Below, one piece after another: positions 55,411-60,341 of a DNA stretch of 64,000 bases. This stretch comes from an uncultured Dokdonia sp. (GTDB lineage Bacteria; Bacteroidota; Bacteroidia; Flavobacteriales; Flavobacteriaceae): NCBI RefSeq assembly GCF_947492535.1, contig NZ_CANLNH010000002.1, positions 1 to 64,000 of the forward strand, given 5' to 3'. The first letter of the stretch is position 1, and each line of letters opens with the position of its first letter. The translations under genes and the position numbers were made by a program. The notes under the pieces were generated by a model. It ran no database searches and was not told the DNA's origin. It worked only from the letters and a program-made list of their open reading frames with translations.

Positions 55411-55418
55411 TATATTTG
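55411..55418 (+). promoter_or_regulatory. Probable -7 box for the TerB-like gene
   Basis: TATATTTG, 24 bases before the ATG at 55443. It argues against the in-frame TTG at 55416. Confidence 0.5.
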
Positions 55419-55442
55419 CGACTTAATTATAAAGATAAAACT

Positions 55443-55874
55443 ATGTCTATTTCAGATTTGTATGATAGCGGTTTCCGCAAGCGTAATGAAGATCATTTTG
55501 CAGCTATGGTACGTATTGCAATGAGTGATACCATAATCACTGAAGATGAAAAAAAATTCCTAGATAGAACAGCTCGTAATCTTGATATTTCAGAAGAAGA
55601 TTATAAAGCGATATTAAAAGAGTATAAAACTCATAAGATTAATCCGCCTATTACGTATGAGAATCGTTTAGAACGCCTCTTTGACTTAGGAAGAATGGTA
55701 TATGCAGATGATGAGCTTGGAGATAAGCAAGTAGTAATGCTAGAAAGACTTGCTGTGGGATTAGGTTTTACAGTAAACAATGTAAAGTATGTTGTTGATA
55801 AAGCATTATCTCTTGTAAATGAAGGTGTAGATTTAGATACCTTTAAAGAAGAAATCAAATTAATGAATCGTTAA
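55443..55874 (+). CDS. TerB-like (tellurite resistance B) protein
   Basis: 143 residues, all helical. EDHFAAMVRIAMSDTIITEDEKKFLDR and GRMVYADDELGDKQVVMLERLAVGLGF show the TerB repeats with acidic metal-binding clusters. Proteins of this type sit at the membrane or bind metal in stress responses; no other ter genes are present. Ends before a shared terminator. Confidence 0.85.
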   Translation: MSISDLYDSGFRKRNEDHFAAMVRIAMSDTIITEDEKKFLDRTARNLDISEEDYKAILKEYKTHKINPPITYENRLERLFDLGRMVYADDELGDKQVVMLERLAVGLGFTVNNVKYVVDKALSLVNEGVDLDTFKEEIKLMNR

Positions 55875-55897
55875 TTAATATAACGATCATATTCTAT

Positions 55898-55931
55898 AAA
55901 AAAAGCGACATATATATATGTCGCTTTTTTT
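55898..55931. terminator. Bidirectional terminator
   Basis: AAAAAAGCGACATA pairs with TATGTCGCTTTTTT around TATA between convergent genes; it serves both the TerB-like gene and the GTPase-kinase operon. Confidence 0.9.
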
Positions 55932-55932
55932 A

Positions 55933-57495
55933 TTATTCTACACTCTCTTCAGTCTTTTTATTCTTATAGCGATGTAATAATCGATCTATTGTTTTAAATA
56001 GGATTTCAGCATTTACTGGTTTTGTTAAATAGGCATTCATCCCACTTTCTTTTGCGGCTTCTCTTTCTTCTTCTGTTGTACGAGCCGTTAATGCAATAAT
56101 AGGAATTTTCTTTATTTTCTTATCCTTATGATTTCGGATTCGCAATGTGGCATCATATCCATCCATAACCGGCATAGAAAGATCCATCAAAATTAAATCG
56201 TATTGATATTTTTCAAGGAACAGTACGAGTTGTTCTCCATTTTTAGCAATGTCTAAACTATAGCTCCCTTCATCTGCAAATAAACGCATCATAAGAAGTT
56301 GATTTACTTCTATATCTTCTCCTAAAAGGATGCGATATTTTTTTCCTTTTGGGCCTGAACTTTTCTTTACCCTTCTTGTAGTGACTTTCTTCTCTTCTTT
56401 TTGGTCATGAGAAACACCCATAGAAATTGTAAATCTAAACGTAGATCCTTCGTTCTCTATACTTTCTACTTCAAGATCACTATCCATTAATTGGGTAAGC
56501 TGCTTTACAATACTAAGTCCTAACCCTGAACCTCCAAACAAACCACGTTTTTCTAATTGTGTGAAGCTTTCAAAAATGGTAGTCAGGTGTTCTTTAGGAA
56601 TTCCTATTCCAGTATCTCTAATTTCAAAAGTAACTGGGATACGACGCATATTCCTAGAGCTCGTCGATATGCGAAATGTAACAGAACCCTTATGGGTAAA
56701 CTTCAATGCGTTTTCAAGTAAATTAATTAAGATTTGATTCAATCTAAGTTGATCTCCAATAAGAAAACGAGGAAGATTTGTTCCTATATCTGAAATAAGT
56801 TCTAATCGCTTTTCTTCAGCCTGTAATTCATACGTTTTTACAAGTGAATCTGTAAACTTCTTGAAGTTAAATCGCTTATTCTTAATTTCTAGCCTTCCAG
56901 CTTCTATTTTTGAAATGTCTAAAAGATCATCTACAATAGAAACAAGGTTTTTAGAAGAGTCTTTAACTATCCTTACCAAGTCTAATTGTTCTCTATCTAA
57001 GTTTGTGTTTTCAAGCACACTTAAAAAACCTAGAATACTATTAAGAGGTGTCCTAATCTCGTGGCTAACATTTGCAAGAAATTTATTTTTAAACCCTCTT
57101 TGAACATTTAGTTCATGATTAAGTTCTTGTGTAATGTTAAAATTAATGATAGACTCATTACGCACCTGTTTTATTTGGTGTACTGTTTTGTAATGATCTG
57201 TAAGATCTTCCACAAACAATACTACTTGTTTTTTATCAAAATCAACAATTGACCTGATATCATAAAAACAAGTTCGTCCTTTTACCTCAATCTGGACACA
57301 ATAGAATTTCTGCTCTTTCCTATCTTCTTCAAAAAGAGATGAAATAACATAAAAAAAGGGATGAAATTCAGTAATGTCAGAGTTCTTCTTTATATAAAAT
57401 AAAGAGTTGTCGGTCTCTAAAACTCGATTCGTGTTGTCTATAATAAGTATCTGAGTGGTGTTCTCTAAGAATTCTTGTCTAAGCTTTTCAAGCAT
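55933..57495 (-). CDS. Cytosolic hybrid histidine kinase, end of the GTPase operon
   Basis: 520 residues from the ATG at 57495 (a TTG two codons upstream is less likely). Order: PAS-like sensor (about 10-120), HisKA with phospho-acceptor His in FLANVSHEIRTPLNSILGF, ATPase with QILINLLENALKFTHKG and DTGIGIPKE, and a C-terminal receiver with LILMDLSMPVMDGYDA and the lysine in YLTKPVNAEI. No membrane segment. It overlaps the Ras-like GTPase gene by 8 bases (ATGCTTGA), so it is translated together with it. No output domain besides the receiver. Confidence 0.9.
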   Translation of the reverse strand: MLEKLRQEFLENTTQILIIDNTNRVLETDNSLFYIKKNSDITEFHPFFYVISSLFEEDRKEQKFYCVQIEVKGRTCFYDIRSIVDFDKKQVVLFVEDLTDHYKTVHQIKQVRNESIINFNITQELNHELNVQRGFKNKFLANVSHEIRTPLNSILGFLSVLENTNLDREQLDLVRIVKDSSKNLVSIVDDLLDISKIEAGRLEIKNKRFNFKKFTDSLVKTYELQAEEKRLELISDIGTNLPRFLIGDQLRLNQILINLLENALKFTHKGSVTFRISTSSRNMRRIPVTFEIRDTGIGIPKEHLTTIFESFTQLEKRGLFGGSGLGLSIVKQLTQLMDSDLEVESIENEGSTFRFTISMGVSHDQKEEKKVTTRRVKKSSGPKGKKYRILLGEDIEVNQLLMMRLFADEGSYSLDIAKNGEQLVLFLEKYQYDLILMDLSMPVMDGYDATLRIRNHKDKKIKKIPIIALTARTTEEEREAAKESGMNAYLTKPVNAEILFKTIDRLLHRYKNKKTEESVE

Positions 57496-57982
57496 TTTCA
57501 AGTAATTGTGCTGCTACATCTTTGAACAGCAATTCAACATTTTCTCCAGTTTTTGCACTAGAAAGATAAGAATGCTGAATATCTTGTGCGTTTAAATCAT
57601 TTATTAACACTTCAGAATCGACCAAATCCACTTTATTCCCGATAATGTGCACAGAAACATGAGGAAACTTCTCTTTTAAATGTTCTAAATTATATTTTAT
57701 ATCACTATAAGTGACTGATCTAGAAGCATCAAACACATATATAAAACTAGAAGCACCCATGAGATAGGAAGGTCTATACTTCGTAAAATCATCTGTTCCT
57801 TCAACATCCCATATCACTAAAGTAATGTTCTCCTTTTCTAAATGTACTTCCTTTTTCATGATATGTACTCCTATCGTAACTGTATAACTTTCTGAAAAAG
57901 TATTTTCTACAAAACGTCTAAGAAGTGAAGATTTTCCTACGCCAAAATGCCCTAACAATACAACTTTTTTAGATACGCTCAT
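57488..57982 (-). CDS. Ras/Rab-like small GTPase
   Basis: 164 residues, a complete small GTPase. G1/P-loop GHFGVGKSS (11-19), G2 Thr36 region, G3 WDVEG (58-62) with Thr63 where Ras has catalytic Gln61, G4 NKVD (116-119), G5 SAK (142-144). There is no lipid-modification tail. The missing Gln suggests slow hydrolysis and dependence on a partner, as in bacterial MglA-like GTPases. It overlaps the upstream gene by 14 bases and the kinase by 8 bases, so the four proteins are likely made at fixed ratio. Confidence 0.92.
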   Translation of the reverse strand: MSVSKKVVLLGHFGVGKSSLLRRFVENTFSESYTVTIGVHIMKKEVHLEKENITLVIWDVEGTDDFTKYRPSYLMGASSFIYVFDASRSVTYSDIKYNLEHLKEKFPHVSVHIIGNKVDLVDSEVLINDLNAQDIQHSYLSSAKTGENVELLFKDVAAQLLENA

Positions 57983-58766
57983 CAGTAAAATATGATTTTA
58001 ATTTTTTGGTAAAAGTTTCTGGATTTTCTAAATCACTTTTATTTACAACAAATTGTGCAAAATCCAATAGCACATCCTCTAATTTGTCTTTATAATCATC
58101 ATCATAGATACCAGTAATAACTACTGCAATATAATAATTTGAAAAGTTTTGGAGATGAATTGTAAATAATTCATAATCAATTCTCTCCAATTCCATCTCT
58201 CCCTGATTATAAGCATCTTCCACAAAACTTTTGATAGCGGTTAACATCCCTGCTAACATATCTTCGTCTAGCGTAGGTCTTTTTGCATAATTTGCTTTGA
58301 GCAGTCCTGATCCTTTTTCAATGATCATAATTTGCTCAATCCTTGCTTTATATTGCTCGTACATTAATGCCGCTGCATCAATATTTTTATCGTTTCCTGA
58401 AAACCAATTTCTAAACGAGAATGTTTTATTAAGCCTTTTATTAATATCGTCGTTTAGCTTTTTAATCTCAGCTTGAACATATTTTTTAATCATTTTACCC
58501 ATTACTGGATATAAAGCTTCAGCTACGGCTTCTTGTGATTTTTTTATTTCTGTCTTAAGAGTTTCTGTAATTACAGGACCTAAGGCTCTAGGCATTTTTT
58601 CTACAAAATCATCCATGCGTTCATCAAGGATTGGAGTTACCCTATCAGAAAGGTTTTCTTGTTCTGATTTTAATTGCTCAATTTTAAGCACAAGATCTCT
58701 GTCAAACTCACGTTCTTCTGTAAGTAAGATTTCCTTTAAAATCTCAAGTCTTTCCTTAGAATCCAT
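57969..58766 (-). CDS. GTPase-operon protein resembling the N-terminal part of certain OmpA-like proteins
   Basis: 265 residues. The N-terminal half (about 1-120) is helical, with PILDERMDDFVEKMPRALGP and EALYPVMGKMIKKYVQAE; the C-terminal half (about 140-262) has IEQIMIIEKGSGLLKANY, DEDMLAGMLTAIKSFVEDAY and a beta/helix pattern like a roadblock/longin-type domain. From memory of these families, the same two blocks form the N-terminus of OmpA-family proteins in proteobacteria and cyanobacteria, without the OmpA domain here. A GTPase regulator or effector is a reasonable inference. Confidence 0.75.
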   Translation of the reverse strand: MDSKERLEILKEILLTEEREFDRDLVLKIEQLKSEQENLSDRVTPILDERMDDFVEKMPRALGPVITETLKTEIKKSQEAVAEALYPVMGKMIKKYVQAEIKKLNDDINKRLNKTFSFRNWFSGNDKNIDAAALMYEQYKARIEQIMIIEKGSGLLKANYAKRPTLDEDMLAGMLTAIKSFVEDAYNQGEMELERIDYELFTIHLQNFSNYYIAVVITGIYDDDYKDKLEDVLLDFAQFVVNKSDLENPETFTKKLKSYFTDERI

Positions 58767-58787
58767 TACAGAGAAGAGTTAGAACTA

Positions 58788-59138
58788 TTAAGATTTTATA
58801 CTCTCGCCTAACTTTATTAGTAAATTACCTAATTGCGATCTATCTACTTTTTTCTCATCGAGAGATGCTGCTTTATCATTTAATGATTCTTCTAAGTCAG
58901 AAATACGAATATTCAAATCTGTACTTAGATTATCAATAGCAGTCATAAGTTCTTTTCGAGTATCGTCAATATAATCTGATAATTCTTGACGTCTCTTTTC
59001 TAGTTCTTTTTTTAGAGTATCAAATTCTTGGCTGTATTCAGCCATATTTTCTCCAAAAATAAGCTGTTTGATTGCGTCAATTTTAGAATTTGCTTCTAAT
59101 TGACTCTGATTGCTTTGCTCTTTATTTCCTTTAGACAT
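58788..59138 (-). CDS. Coiled-coil protein, first gene of the GTPase operon
   Basis: 116 residues, mostly coiled coil (about 30-95), beginning with LIFGENMAEYSQEFDTLKKEL and ending VDRSQLGNLLIKLGESI. Short conserved head and tail around a rod suggest an adaptor. I recognise it from context with the OmpA-N-like protein, not by a named domain. It has its own -7 box upstream. Confidence 0.7.
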   Translation of the reverse strand: MSKGNKEQSNQSQLEANSKIDAIKQLIFGENMAEYSQEFDTLKKELEKRRQELSDYIDDTRKELMTAIDNLSTDLNIRISDLEESLNDKAASLDEKKVDRSQLGNLLIKLGESIKS

Positions 59139-59216: not shown

Positions 59217-60224
59217 TTATAATGATTCTGCCATAAAAGCTTCTGCTTTTTCAACCATATTTTTACTTCCACAAAAGAAAGGAACTCTCTCATGTAATTC
59301 TGTAGGTTGGAGATCTAATATTGAAGTATACCCATCACTTGCTTTCCCTCCAGCTTGCTCAGTAATAAATGCCATAGGGTTACATTCATATAATAATCTA
59401 AGTTTTCCTTTAGCATTAAGAGAACTTTTTGGGTACATATAAATACCCCCTTTAATCATATTACGATGTATATCAGAAACTAACGAACCAATATATCTAG
59501 ATGTATACGGACGATTTTCTGATTCTTCCTGACAATATTTAATATAATTTTTAACTCCTTGAGGGAAATGCGTGTAATTCCCTTCATTTACTGAGTAAAT
59601 ATTTCCTTCTTCAGGAAATTGCATATTAGGATGTGATAAGTAAAATGTTCCAATTGCTGGATTTAATGTAAATCCATTAACGCCATGACCTGTTGTATAT
59701 ACTAACATGGTACTTGTTCCATAAATAATATATCCTGCTGCTACTTGGTTACGTCCTGGTTGTAAAAAATCATCAATAGTTACAGGAGTACCTGAAGGAG
59801 TAATCCTTCTATAAACAGAAAAAATAGTCCCTACAGAAACATTTACATCTATATTTGAAGATCCATCTAGAGGATCCATCAACACTACATATTTATTTTG
59901 ATGATCGTCATTATGCCCTTCTATCGTAATAAAATCATCATTTTCTTCACTTCCTATACCACAAACAATCTCTCTATTTTTAAGGGTATTTATAAAAGTC
60001 TCGTTTGCAATTACATCTAATTTTTGCTGATCTTCTCCTTGTATATTTGTATCTCCAGCCTCACCTAATATATCTACTAATCCAGCTTTATTTACTTGGT
60101 GATTTACCACTTTTGCAGCTAATCGAATCGAATTAATTAATCGAGATAACTCCCCAGAAGAATACTTAAACTCTGATTGATTTTCAATTATAAATTCTCC
60201 TAAAGTTTGATTTTTACGTGCCAT
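59217..60224 (-). CDS. fbp: Fructose-1,6-bisphosphatase, class I
   Basis: 335 residues from the ATG at 60224. Motifs: GSEENDDFI, metal site [38 protein letters not shown], and [16 protein letters not shown]. Key gluconeogenic enzyme. The ATG at 60272 would place the start before the promoter (-7 box at 60248-60255) and is rejected. Confidence 0.97.
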
Positions 60225-60247
60225 GTAGTGTCTATCATTATTTTTTG

Positions 60248-60255
60248 CAAAAATA
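60248..60255 (-). promoter_or_regulatory. fbp promoter
   Basis: The minus strand reads TATTTTTG, with TTG candidates at 60280-60278 (22-base gap) and 60274-60272 (16-base gap), 23 bases before the chosen ATG. Confidence 0.6.
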
Positions 60256-60341
60256 TTCAAAAAAAACACCACAACTACAACGATTTCGTATTCTTTTATC
60301 TATATATTTTTTTACTTTAGCTCGCTTAGATCGGATTTCTT

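Follow-up and report, generated by a model that had tools for sequence, protein, structure and literature searches.

A Group 1 Rup-type GTPase operon of Dokdonia with a predicted longin/roadblock-like partner and a hybrid kinase with a predicted PAS domain

Background

What controls a bacterial GTPase of the Rup type, and on what does such a GTPase act? The question is raised by a set of four minus-strand open reading frames (55933-59138) in a 64,000-nucleotide stretch of DNA from an uncultured Dokdonia sp., the whole of which we term the window. An earlier note on this DNA regarded the set as a Ras-like GTPase and a hybrid kinase joined to two uncharacterised partners; it matches, in fact, the neighbourhood of the Group 1 Rup GTPases that Wuichet and Sogaard-Andersen described from genomes in 2014 (PMC4316618). 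This comprises a coiled-coil gene, a gene for a domain of unknown function, a Rup GTPase lacking the Gln of G3, and an output protein, either a histidine kinase or of the GGDEF/EAL type, whose N-terminal region bears an invariant Gln; Bacteroidetes are among the hosts of this neighbourhood. In the sections of that survey dealing with Rup, the partner is said to carry "often" a transmembrane (TM) segment and an OmpA domain and is given no named fold, none of the Rup sequences is coupled to MglB, and the family had, as of 2014, neither a characterised member nor an identified GAP (PMC4316618). Our search of the PMC literature returned neither an experimental study of Rup after that survey nor a paper assigning a longin fold to its partner.

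On balance, we consider it probable that the locus is a Group 1 Rup operon belonging to a mostly Bacteroidota subtype whose partner lacks the tail, in which a longin-like partner controls the GTPase and the GTPase in turn targets the kinase where its PAS domain joins the helix.

Results and discussion

Organization and surroundings of the gene set

The positions given previously for the four genes hold when checked against the open reading frames, as do the two overlaps (14 and 8 bases). In order of transcription, the minus-strand genes code for a 116-aa coiled-coil protein (58788-59138), recognized from its ORF, related ORFs and a shared N-terminal motif; a 265-aa protein (57969-58766), the family of which we call RUPB; a 164-aa Rup-type GTPase of the Ras family with Thr63 at the place of the G3 Gln (57488-57982); and a 520-aa hybrid histidine kinase (55933-57495), its length being counted from an ATG (the listed TTG start gives 522 aa). 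Uncultured Dokdonia are the closest named relatives.

A terminator-like hairpin (55896-55933; -19.8 kcal/mol, z -8.4) lies 3' of the kinase gene, between convergent genes, in agreement with the strong terminator proposed earlier, and is absent from the list of a generic terminator scan; its stem holds an A-run and a T-run, such that it could serve both strands. The promoter ascribed to the operon in the earlier note fared less well, as promoter-like matches occur at chance level (20 versus 23.6 expected), and a Bacteroides-type pattern occurs five times in the whole window (5.7 expected), none of the five falling between the first gene and its upstream neighbour. Given that the upstream gene on the same strand stops only 78 bases before the first gene, read-through transcription into the operon is possible. 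This upstream gene (59217-60272) presumably codes, judging by likeness, for a fructose-1,6-bisphosphatase (fbp-like). Relatives of it are present on the same pieces as the Dokdonia loci and five others (L024, L033, L038, L039 and L040), while the convergent TerB-like gene (55416-55874 in the window) is kept in 11 loci; both flanking genes hold their position around the set in the Flavobacteriaceae loci examined.

Linkage and co-occurrence of the GTPase and its partner

Among 80 loci picked by likeness of the GTPase (the best 80 of 374 confirmed), a RUPB-family match was found on the fetched piece in 73, upstream on the same strand and within 2.7 kb of the GTPase gene in 67, and in the order coiled coil-RUPB-GTPase in 64; coiled-coil matches, the least specific of the family matches, were present at 67. 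No ORF fusing the GTPase to RUPB was found in the first 105 loci. In sampled genomes the 265-aa protein was present in 16 of 17 from the same genus, three of 18 others of the family and two of 23 of the order. Across 395 Bacteroidota genomes, the RUPB profile and the GTPase (E <=1e-12) were each detected in 14, and these were the identical 14, an overlap with a chance of 4.9e-26 if kinship is ignored (the 14 genomes represent 11 genera). In several genomes the two genes are divergent or split rather than in one operon: they lie on separate contigs in three genomes of a single genus (G187, G091 and G070) and are divergent in G274. One of the 14, G152, has an in-frame TGA within its GTPase match. 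The first three of these genomes also show a coiled-coil gene paired with RUPB (about 600 aa) on a piece devoid of the GTPase (L124, L125 and L126), the long RUPB of L124 displaying an OmpA domain. The conserved linkage anticipated by the earlier note is thus strong, both by neighbourhood counts in the 80 loci and by co-occurrence in 14 of the 395 genomes.

The Rup-type GTPase and its G3 position

The window GTPase matches the Pfam Ras family with E 4.5e-34, and its best PDB sequence match is Rab-6B (E 2.5e-23). It is complete, as had been claimed, with G1 (GHFGVGKS), G3 (DVEG), G4 (NKVD) and G5 (SAK) intact, and its G3 stretch, D59-V-E-G62-T63, keeps the Asp and lacks the Gln, which is the Rup-type pattern.

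Position 63 is other than Gln in 72 of 74 RUPB-linked GTPases, with Glu the commonest residue (35/74) and Thr in nine. The Ras change that corresponds to Glu at this place raises intrinsic hydrolysis. The two linked GTPases with Gln63 (L071 and L097) both have unusual neighbourhoods. Conversely, Gln occupies the position in five of seven unlinked GTPases (linked versus unlinked, Fisher P 1.6e-5, uncorrected), a correlation blurred by the presence elsewhere in six of these seven genomes of RUPB (three) or its C-terminal domain alone (three). The L069 GTPase is situated at a contig end. In a tree of 81 GTPases from the loci gathered here, 46 rows whose partner is short (ORF <330 aa), including the window, form one clade with support of 95/90; two more short-partner rows, L086 and L093, fall outside it. 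The tree supports this clade as that of GTPases whose partner is without a membrane/OmpA tail.

A predicted longin/roadblock-like domain in the partner

The 265-aa protein consists of a helical N-terminal half and, from about residue 140 to about residue 262, a C-terminal domain, encoded at about 57981-58349 on the minus strand of the window. In its AlphaFold model (mean pLDDT 70), the former is at about 46-61, while the block means of the latter are 72-93, and the modelled domain runs strand-strand-helix-three strands-helices. Foldseek searches with this model gave a best E of 3.6e-5, with MglB at 1.3e-4; the 50 matches listed (3.6e-5 to 8e-4) were, except for eight axonemal or dynein entries the titles of which do not name the chain, all entries of AP sigma and mu, zeta-COP, p14/MP1, Ragulator, MglB, TRAPP, Mon1-Ccz1, Fuzzy-Inturned, Ykt6 and Rag complexes. 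These E-values are moderate, and the rmsd values are often large, since the alignment takes in only one half of the model. We take the matched complexes (AP sigma, MglB, TRAPP, Mon1-Ccz1 and so on) to be carriers of roadblock/longin-fold chains.

A profile-profile comparison points the same way. Against a profile built from 24 of 25 Bacteroidota Robl_LC7 proteins (L144 being too short), hhalign gave P 4.9e-5 over 84 columns, as against 0.077 for the N-terminal half. The RUPB alignment drawn from L026-L105 comprises 72 segments, each scoring 150 bits or more, with L097 and weak second segments dropped. In searches by sequence, neither Pfam nor NCBIfam had a family that the 265-aa protein matched over cut-off, and there was no roadblock/longin chain among its PDB profile matches; beneath the cut-off, the 73 RUPB members yielded Intu_longin_1 in five, Fuz_longin_1 in four and Robl_LC7 in three. 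The model, Foldseek and hhalign agree in predicting the roadblock/longin-like C-terminal half that the earlier note had surmised and for which it had asked for a structure prediction, with longin and roadblock not told apart with certainty. A longin fold, as predicted here, would be new for the RUPB partner, to whose domain the published description assigned no function. Of the outcomes that the earlier note held to count against its reading, the two concerning fold and linkage were examined: the fold is predicted and the linkage is conserved.

The Dokdonia protein has neither a TM segment nor an OmpA domain. In other lineages the RUPB region is followed by a TM segment near residue 300, and seven of the 10 long-form relatives chosen for this comparison have an OmpA domain; the likeness to the N-terminus of OmpA-tailed proteins remarked on previously is real.

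The coiled-coil protein and the RUPB family have in common an N-terminal motif like LxxLRxILxG (hhalign P 1.1e-4, 29 columns), which is perhaps a docking or co-assembly element.

The hybrid kinase and its PAS module

Pfam matches to HisKA, HATPase_c and Response_reg, with the expected box motifs, bear out the earlier identification of a soluble, cytosolic hybrid histidine kinase. Ahead of these domains are a predicted PAS domain (about residues 14-97) and, from residue 99, a signal helix containing Q110. The model of this N-terminal region (pLDDT 87) shows a PAS-type fold and then a helix (99-131) at lower confidence, with block means of 61-73. Its best Foldseek match is the Aer2 PAS-HAMP structure (3.4e-4), and the nine matches with E <=0.001 comprise eight PAS entries and one dynein chain.

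In the column aligned with Q110, 58 of 61 rows have Gln and the other three a gap, across kinases and GGDEF/EAL proteins alike. The Gln is also invariant in an alignment of selected rows, which used 51 of 54 segments (two L078 half-matches and L082 were left out), the count over 61 rows being the fuller one; the alignment of downstream ORFs covers 71 of 74 (excluding L071, L092 and L097). The window kinase thus has the N-terminal Gln expected of a Group 1 Rup output, and Q110 is most likely the very residue described as invariant in PMC4316618. Behind the PAS module, 52 relatives have a histidine kinase with receiver (19), a histidine kinase (13), GGDEF+EAL (seven) or no recognised output domain (13). 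Since other outputs take the place of the catalytic part while the PAS module is conserved, we favour reading the kinase as an output and not as an input. Small stand-alone PAS-type proteins with no recognised output domain occur in or adjoining the gene set in L039 (5473-5901, assigned by reading only), L052, L055, L057 and L059.

A proposed mechanism and its alternatives

The gene set, its linkage and co-occurrence, the predicted longin-like and PAS folds, the invariant Q110 and the interchangeable outputs are the products of computation; from them we infer physical contacts, a direction of signalling and a role in catalysis for each part, as follows. The roadblock/longin-like domain of the 265-aa protein would bind and control the Rup GTPase, whether as GAP, GEF or platform, and the coiled-coil protein may help to assemble or place the 265-aa protein, perhaps via the shared N-terminal motif. 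In one of its nucleotide states, the GTPase would act on the kinase at its PAS domain and at the signal helix around Q110, and this action may change phosphotransfer.

Other readings of the same parts deserve weighing. The longin protein might be a platform only, like Ragulator, with neither GAP nor GEF activity, which we consider rather unlikely, albeit with points in its favour: platform and coat proteins (p14/MP1, Ragulator, AP sigma) make up many of the Foldseek matches, and the prevalence of Glu at the G3 Gln place (35/74) suits a partner of this sort. MglB, a GAP, and Mon1-Ccz1, a GEF, are nevertheless among these matches too, such that the fold cannot decide. A different division of labour, which we regard as unlikely, would make the kinase N-terminus the GAP, with Q110 supplied in trans for the missing G3 Gln and the longin protein reduced to a scaffold; such replacement by a Gln of the output was suggested for Group 1 Rup (PMC4316618). 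The conservation of Q110 across kinases and GGDEF/EAL proteins speaks for it, as does the absence of the G3 Gln in linked GTPases and its presence in most unlinked ones, but RUPB or its C-terminal domain is found elsewhere in six of those seven "unlinked" genomes. Moreover, the modelled Q110 lies within the long post-PAS helix, a setting more in keeping with a coiled-coil signal junction than with a finger, though weakly so, given the helix block means of 61-73.

The direction of signalling could also be reversed, with the kinase as input and the GTPase as output. A precedent exists in the actinobacterial conservons, where a histidine kinase is found together with a roadblock protein and with a GTPase that is read as their output in the pertinent part of PMC4316618, and the PAS domain of the kinase could sense a ligand. 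Against this, the Dokdonia kinase has its own receiver, and the same PAS module precedes GGDEF+EAL in seven of 52 relatives, a swapping that fits an output; we judge this reversal improbable. We accordingly retain the reading in which the longin-like partner controls the GTPase and the GTPase acts on the kinase. The predicted longin/roadblock protein that travels with the GTPase provides a named, testable candidate for the regulator of Rup, and, if the proposal is true, the MglA, Rup and Rab/Rag GTPases share one kind of partner. None of the four Dokdonia proteins has a predicted membrane part, and this version of the system thus seems well suited to biochemical work.

Archaeal relatives of the longin-like domain

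The profile of the RUPB C-terminal domain matches 56 of 59 Asgard genomes, at up to 39 places each, a count that is not independent of the profile, which includes seven archaeal rows. Two large archaeal proteins are encoded close to Rup-like GTPases on the same strand. One, of 1336 aa, is from a Thermoplasmata archaeon (L180:6933-11549), with a TM segment at 1183, a domain match at 1209-1316 and a gene about 45 bases from that of the GTPase; the other, of 1302 aa, is Lokiarchaeial (L184:2127-6624), with a TM segment at 1049, a domain match at 1097-1191 and a distance of about 40 bases. Both begin with a hydrophobic segment near the N-terminus and have a TM segment late in the chain as well as a cytosolic longin-like domain.

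In 30 Asgard loci, being the best match per genome in 30 of the 56 matching genomes, a predicted TM segment precedes the longin-like domain in 16 and follows it in none, the archaeal TM calls being those of a simple hydropathy scan, with several ORFs truncated by the ends of the piece; nine of the 16 have a single segment 20-39 residues ahead of the domain and seven have many. In seven of the Asgard proteins (L186, L188, L189, L191, L192, L193 and L211), the longin-like domain comes after 7-9 predicted membrane segments, and a Pfam scan of L186, the one scanned among the seven many-span proteins, found no family. Three of the 30 loci show the domain and a Ras-family GTPase fused in one ORF (L207:847-1863, L208:832-1854 and L213:1480-2496); no GTPase was found on the fetched piece at the other 27, implying that adjacency to a GTPase is rare there. 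Sybindin and Fuz_longin_1 were matched weakly, under cut-off, in two Asgard copies.

Asgard longin domains, some of them fused to GTPases, have already been published (PMC10933270 and PMC4917890, in the parts concerned with them); the words "transmembrane" and "receptor" are absent from the main text of PMC10933270, and a search of the PMC literature for receptors with longin domains found nothing relevant. We tentatively suggest, as a conjecture somewhat short of even likelihood, that the RUPB domain is of the longin type and homologous to the Asgard domains, and that it often lies just inside the membrane in receptor-like proteins, these being OmpA-tailed in bacteria and large, single- or many-span, and in some cases GTPase-adjacent or fused, in archaea. 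Longin coupling of receptors to Ras-like GTPases would then be an old prokaryotic arrangement, of which the tail-less Dokdonia operon might be a soluble offshoot.

Comparison with known systems

The Dokdonia set shares with the Group 1 Rup neighbourhood the coiled-coil and conserved-domain genes beside the GTPase, the missing G3 Gln and the Gln-bearing output. It differs in a partner that has no TM segment or OmpA tail, features which the relevant text of PMC4316618 gives as frequent rather than strict, and that has a predicted roadblock/longin domain. With MglA/MglB it has in common a small GTPase and a partner of roadblock fold, predicted in the Dokdonia case, MglB being among the Foldseek matches listed. 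However, the window GTPase keeps the G3 Asp (D59), which MglA lacks according to the passages of PMC3000849 that treat it, and there was no Robl_LC7 match in the Dokdonia genome; together these rule out membership in the MglA/MglB system.

The actinobacterial conservons (Cvn) likewise unite a histidine kinase, a roadblock-fold protein and a small GTPase in one operon, but their GTPases are of the MglA family, as far as the account in PMC4316618 goes, whereas the Dokdonia operon has a hybrid kinase with a receiver and no membrane part. Finally, the longin/roadblock regulators of Rab and Rag in eukaryotes and Asgard archaea resemble it in the predicted fold of the partner, the Rab-like GTPase and the Asgard GTPase fusions. 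In contrast to these, the present system is a bacterial operon with phosphotransfer or c-di-GMP-type outputs, and its partner in many other bacteria carries a TM segment and an OmpA domain.
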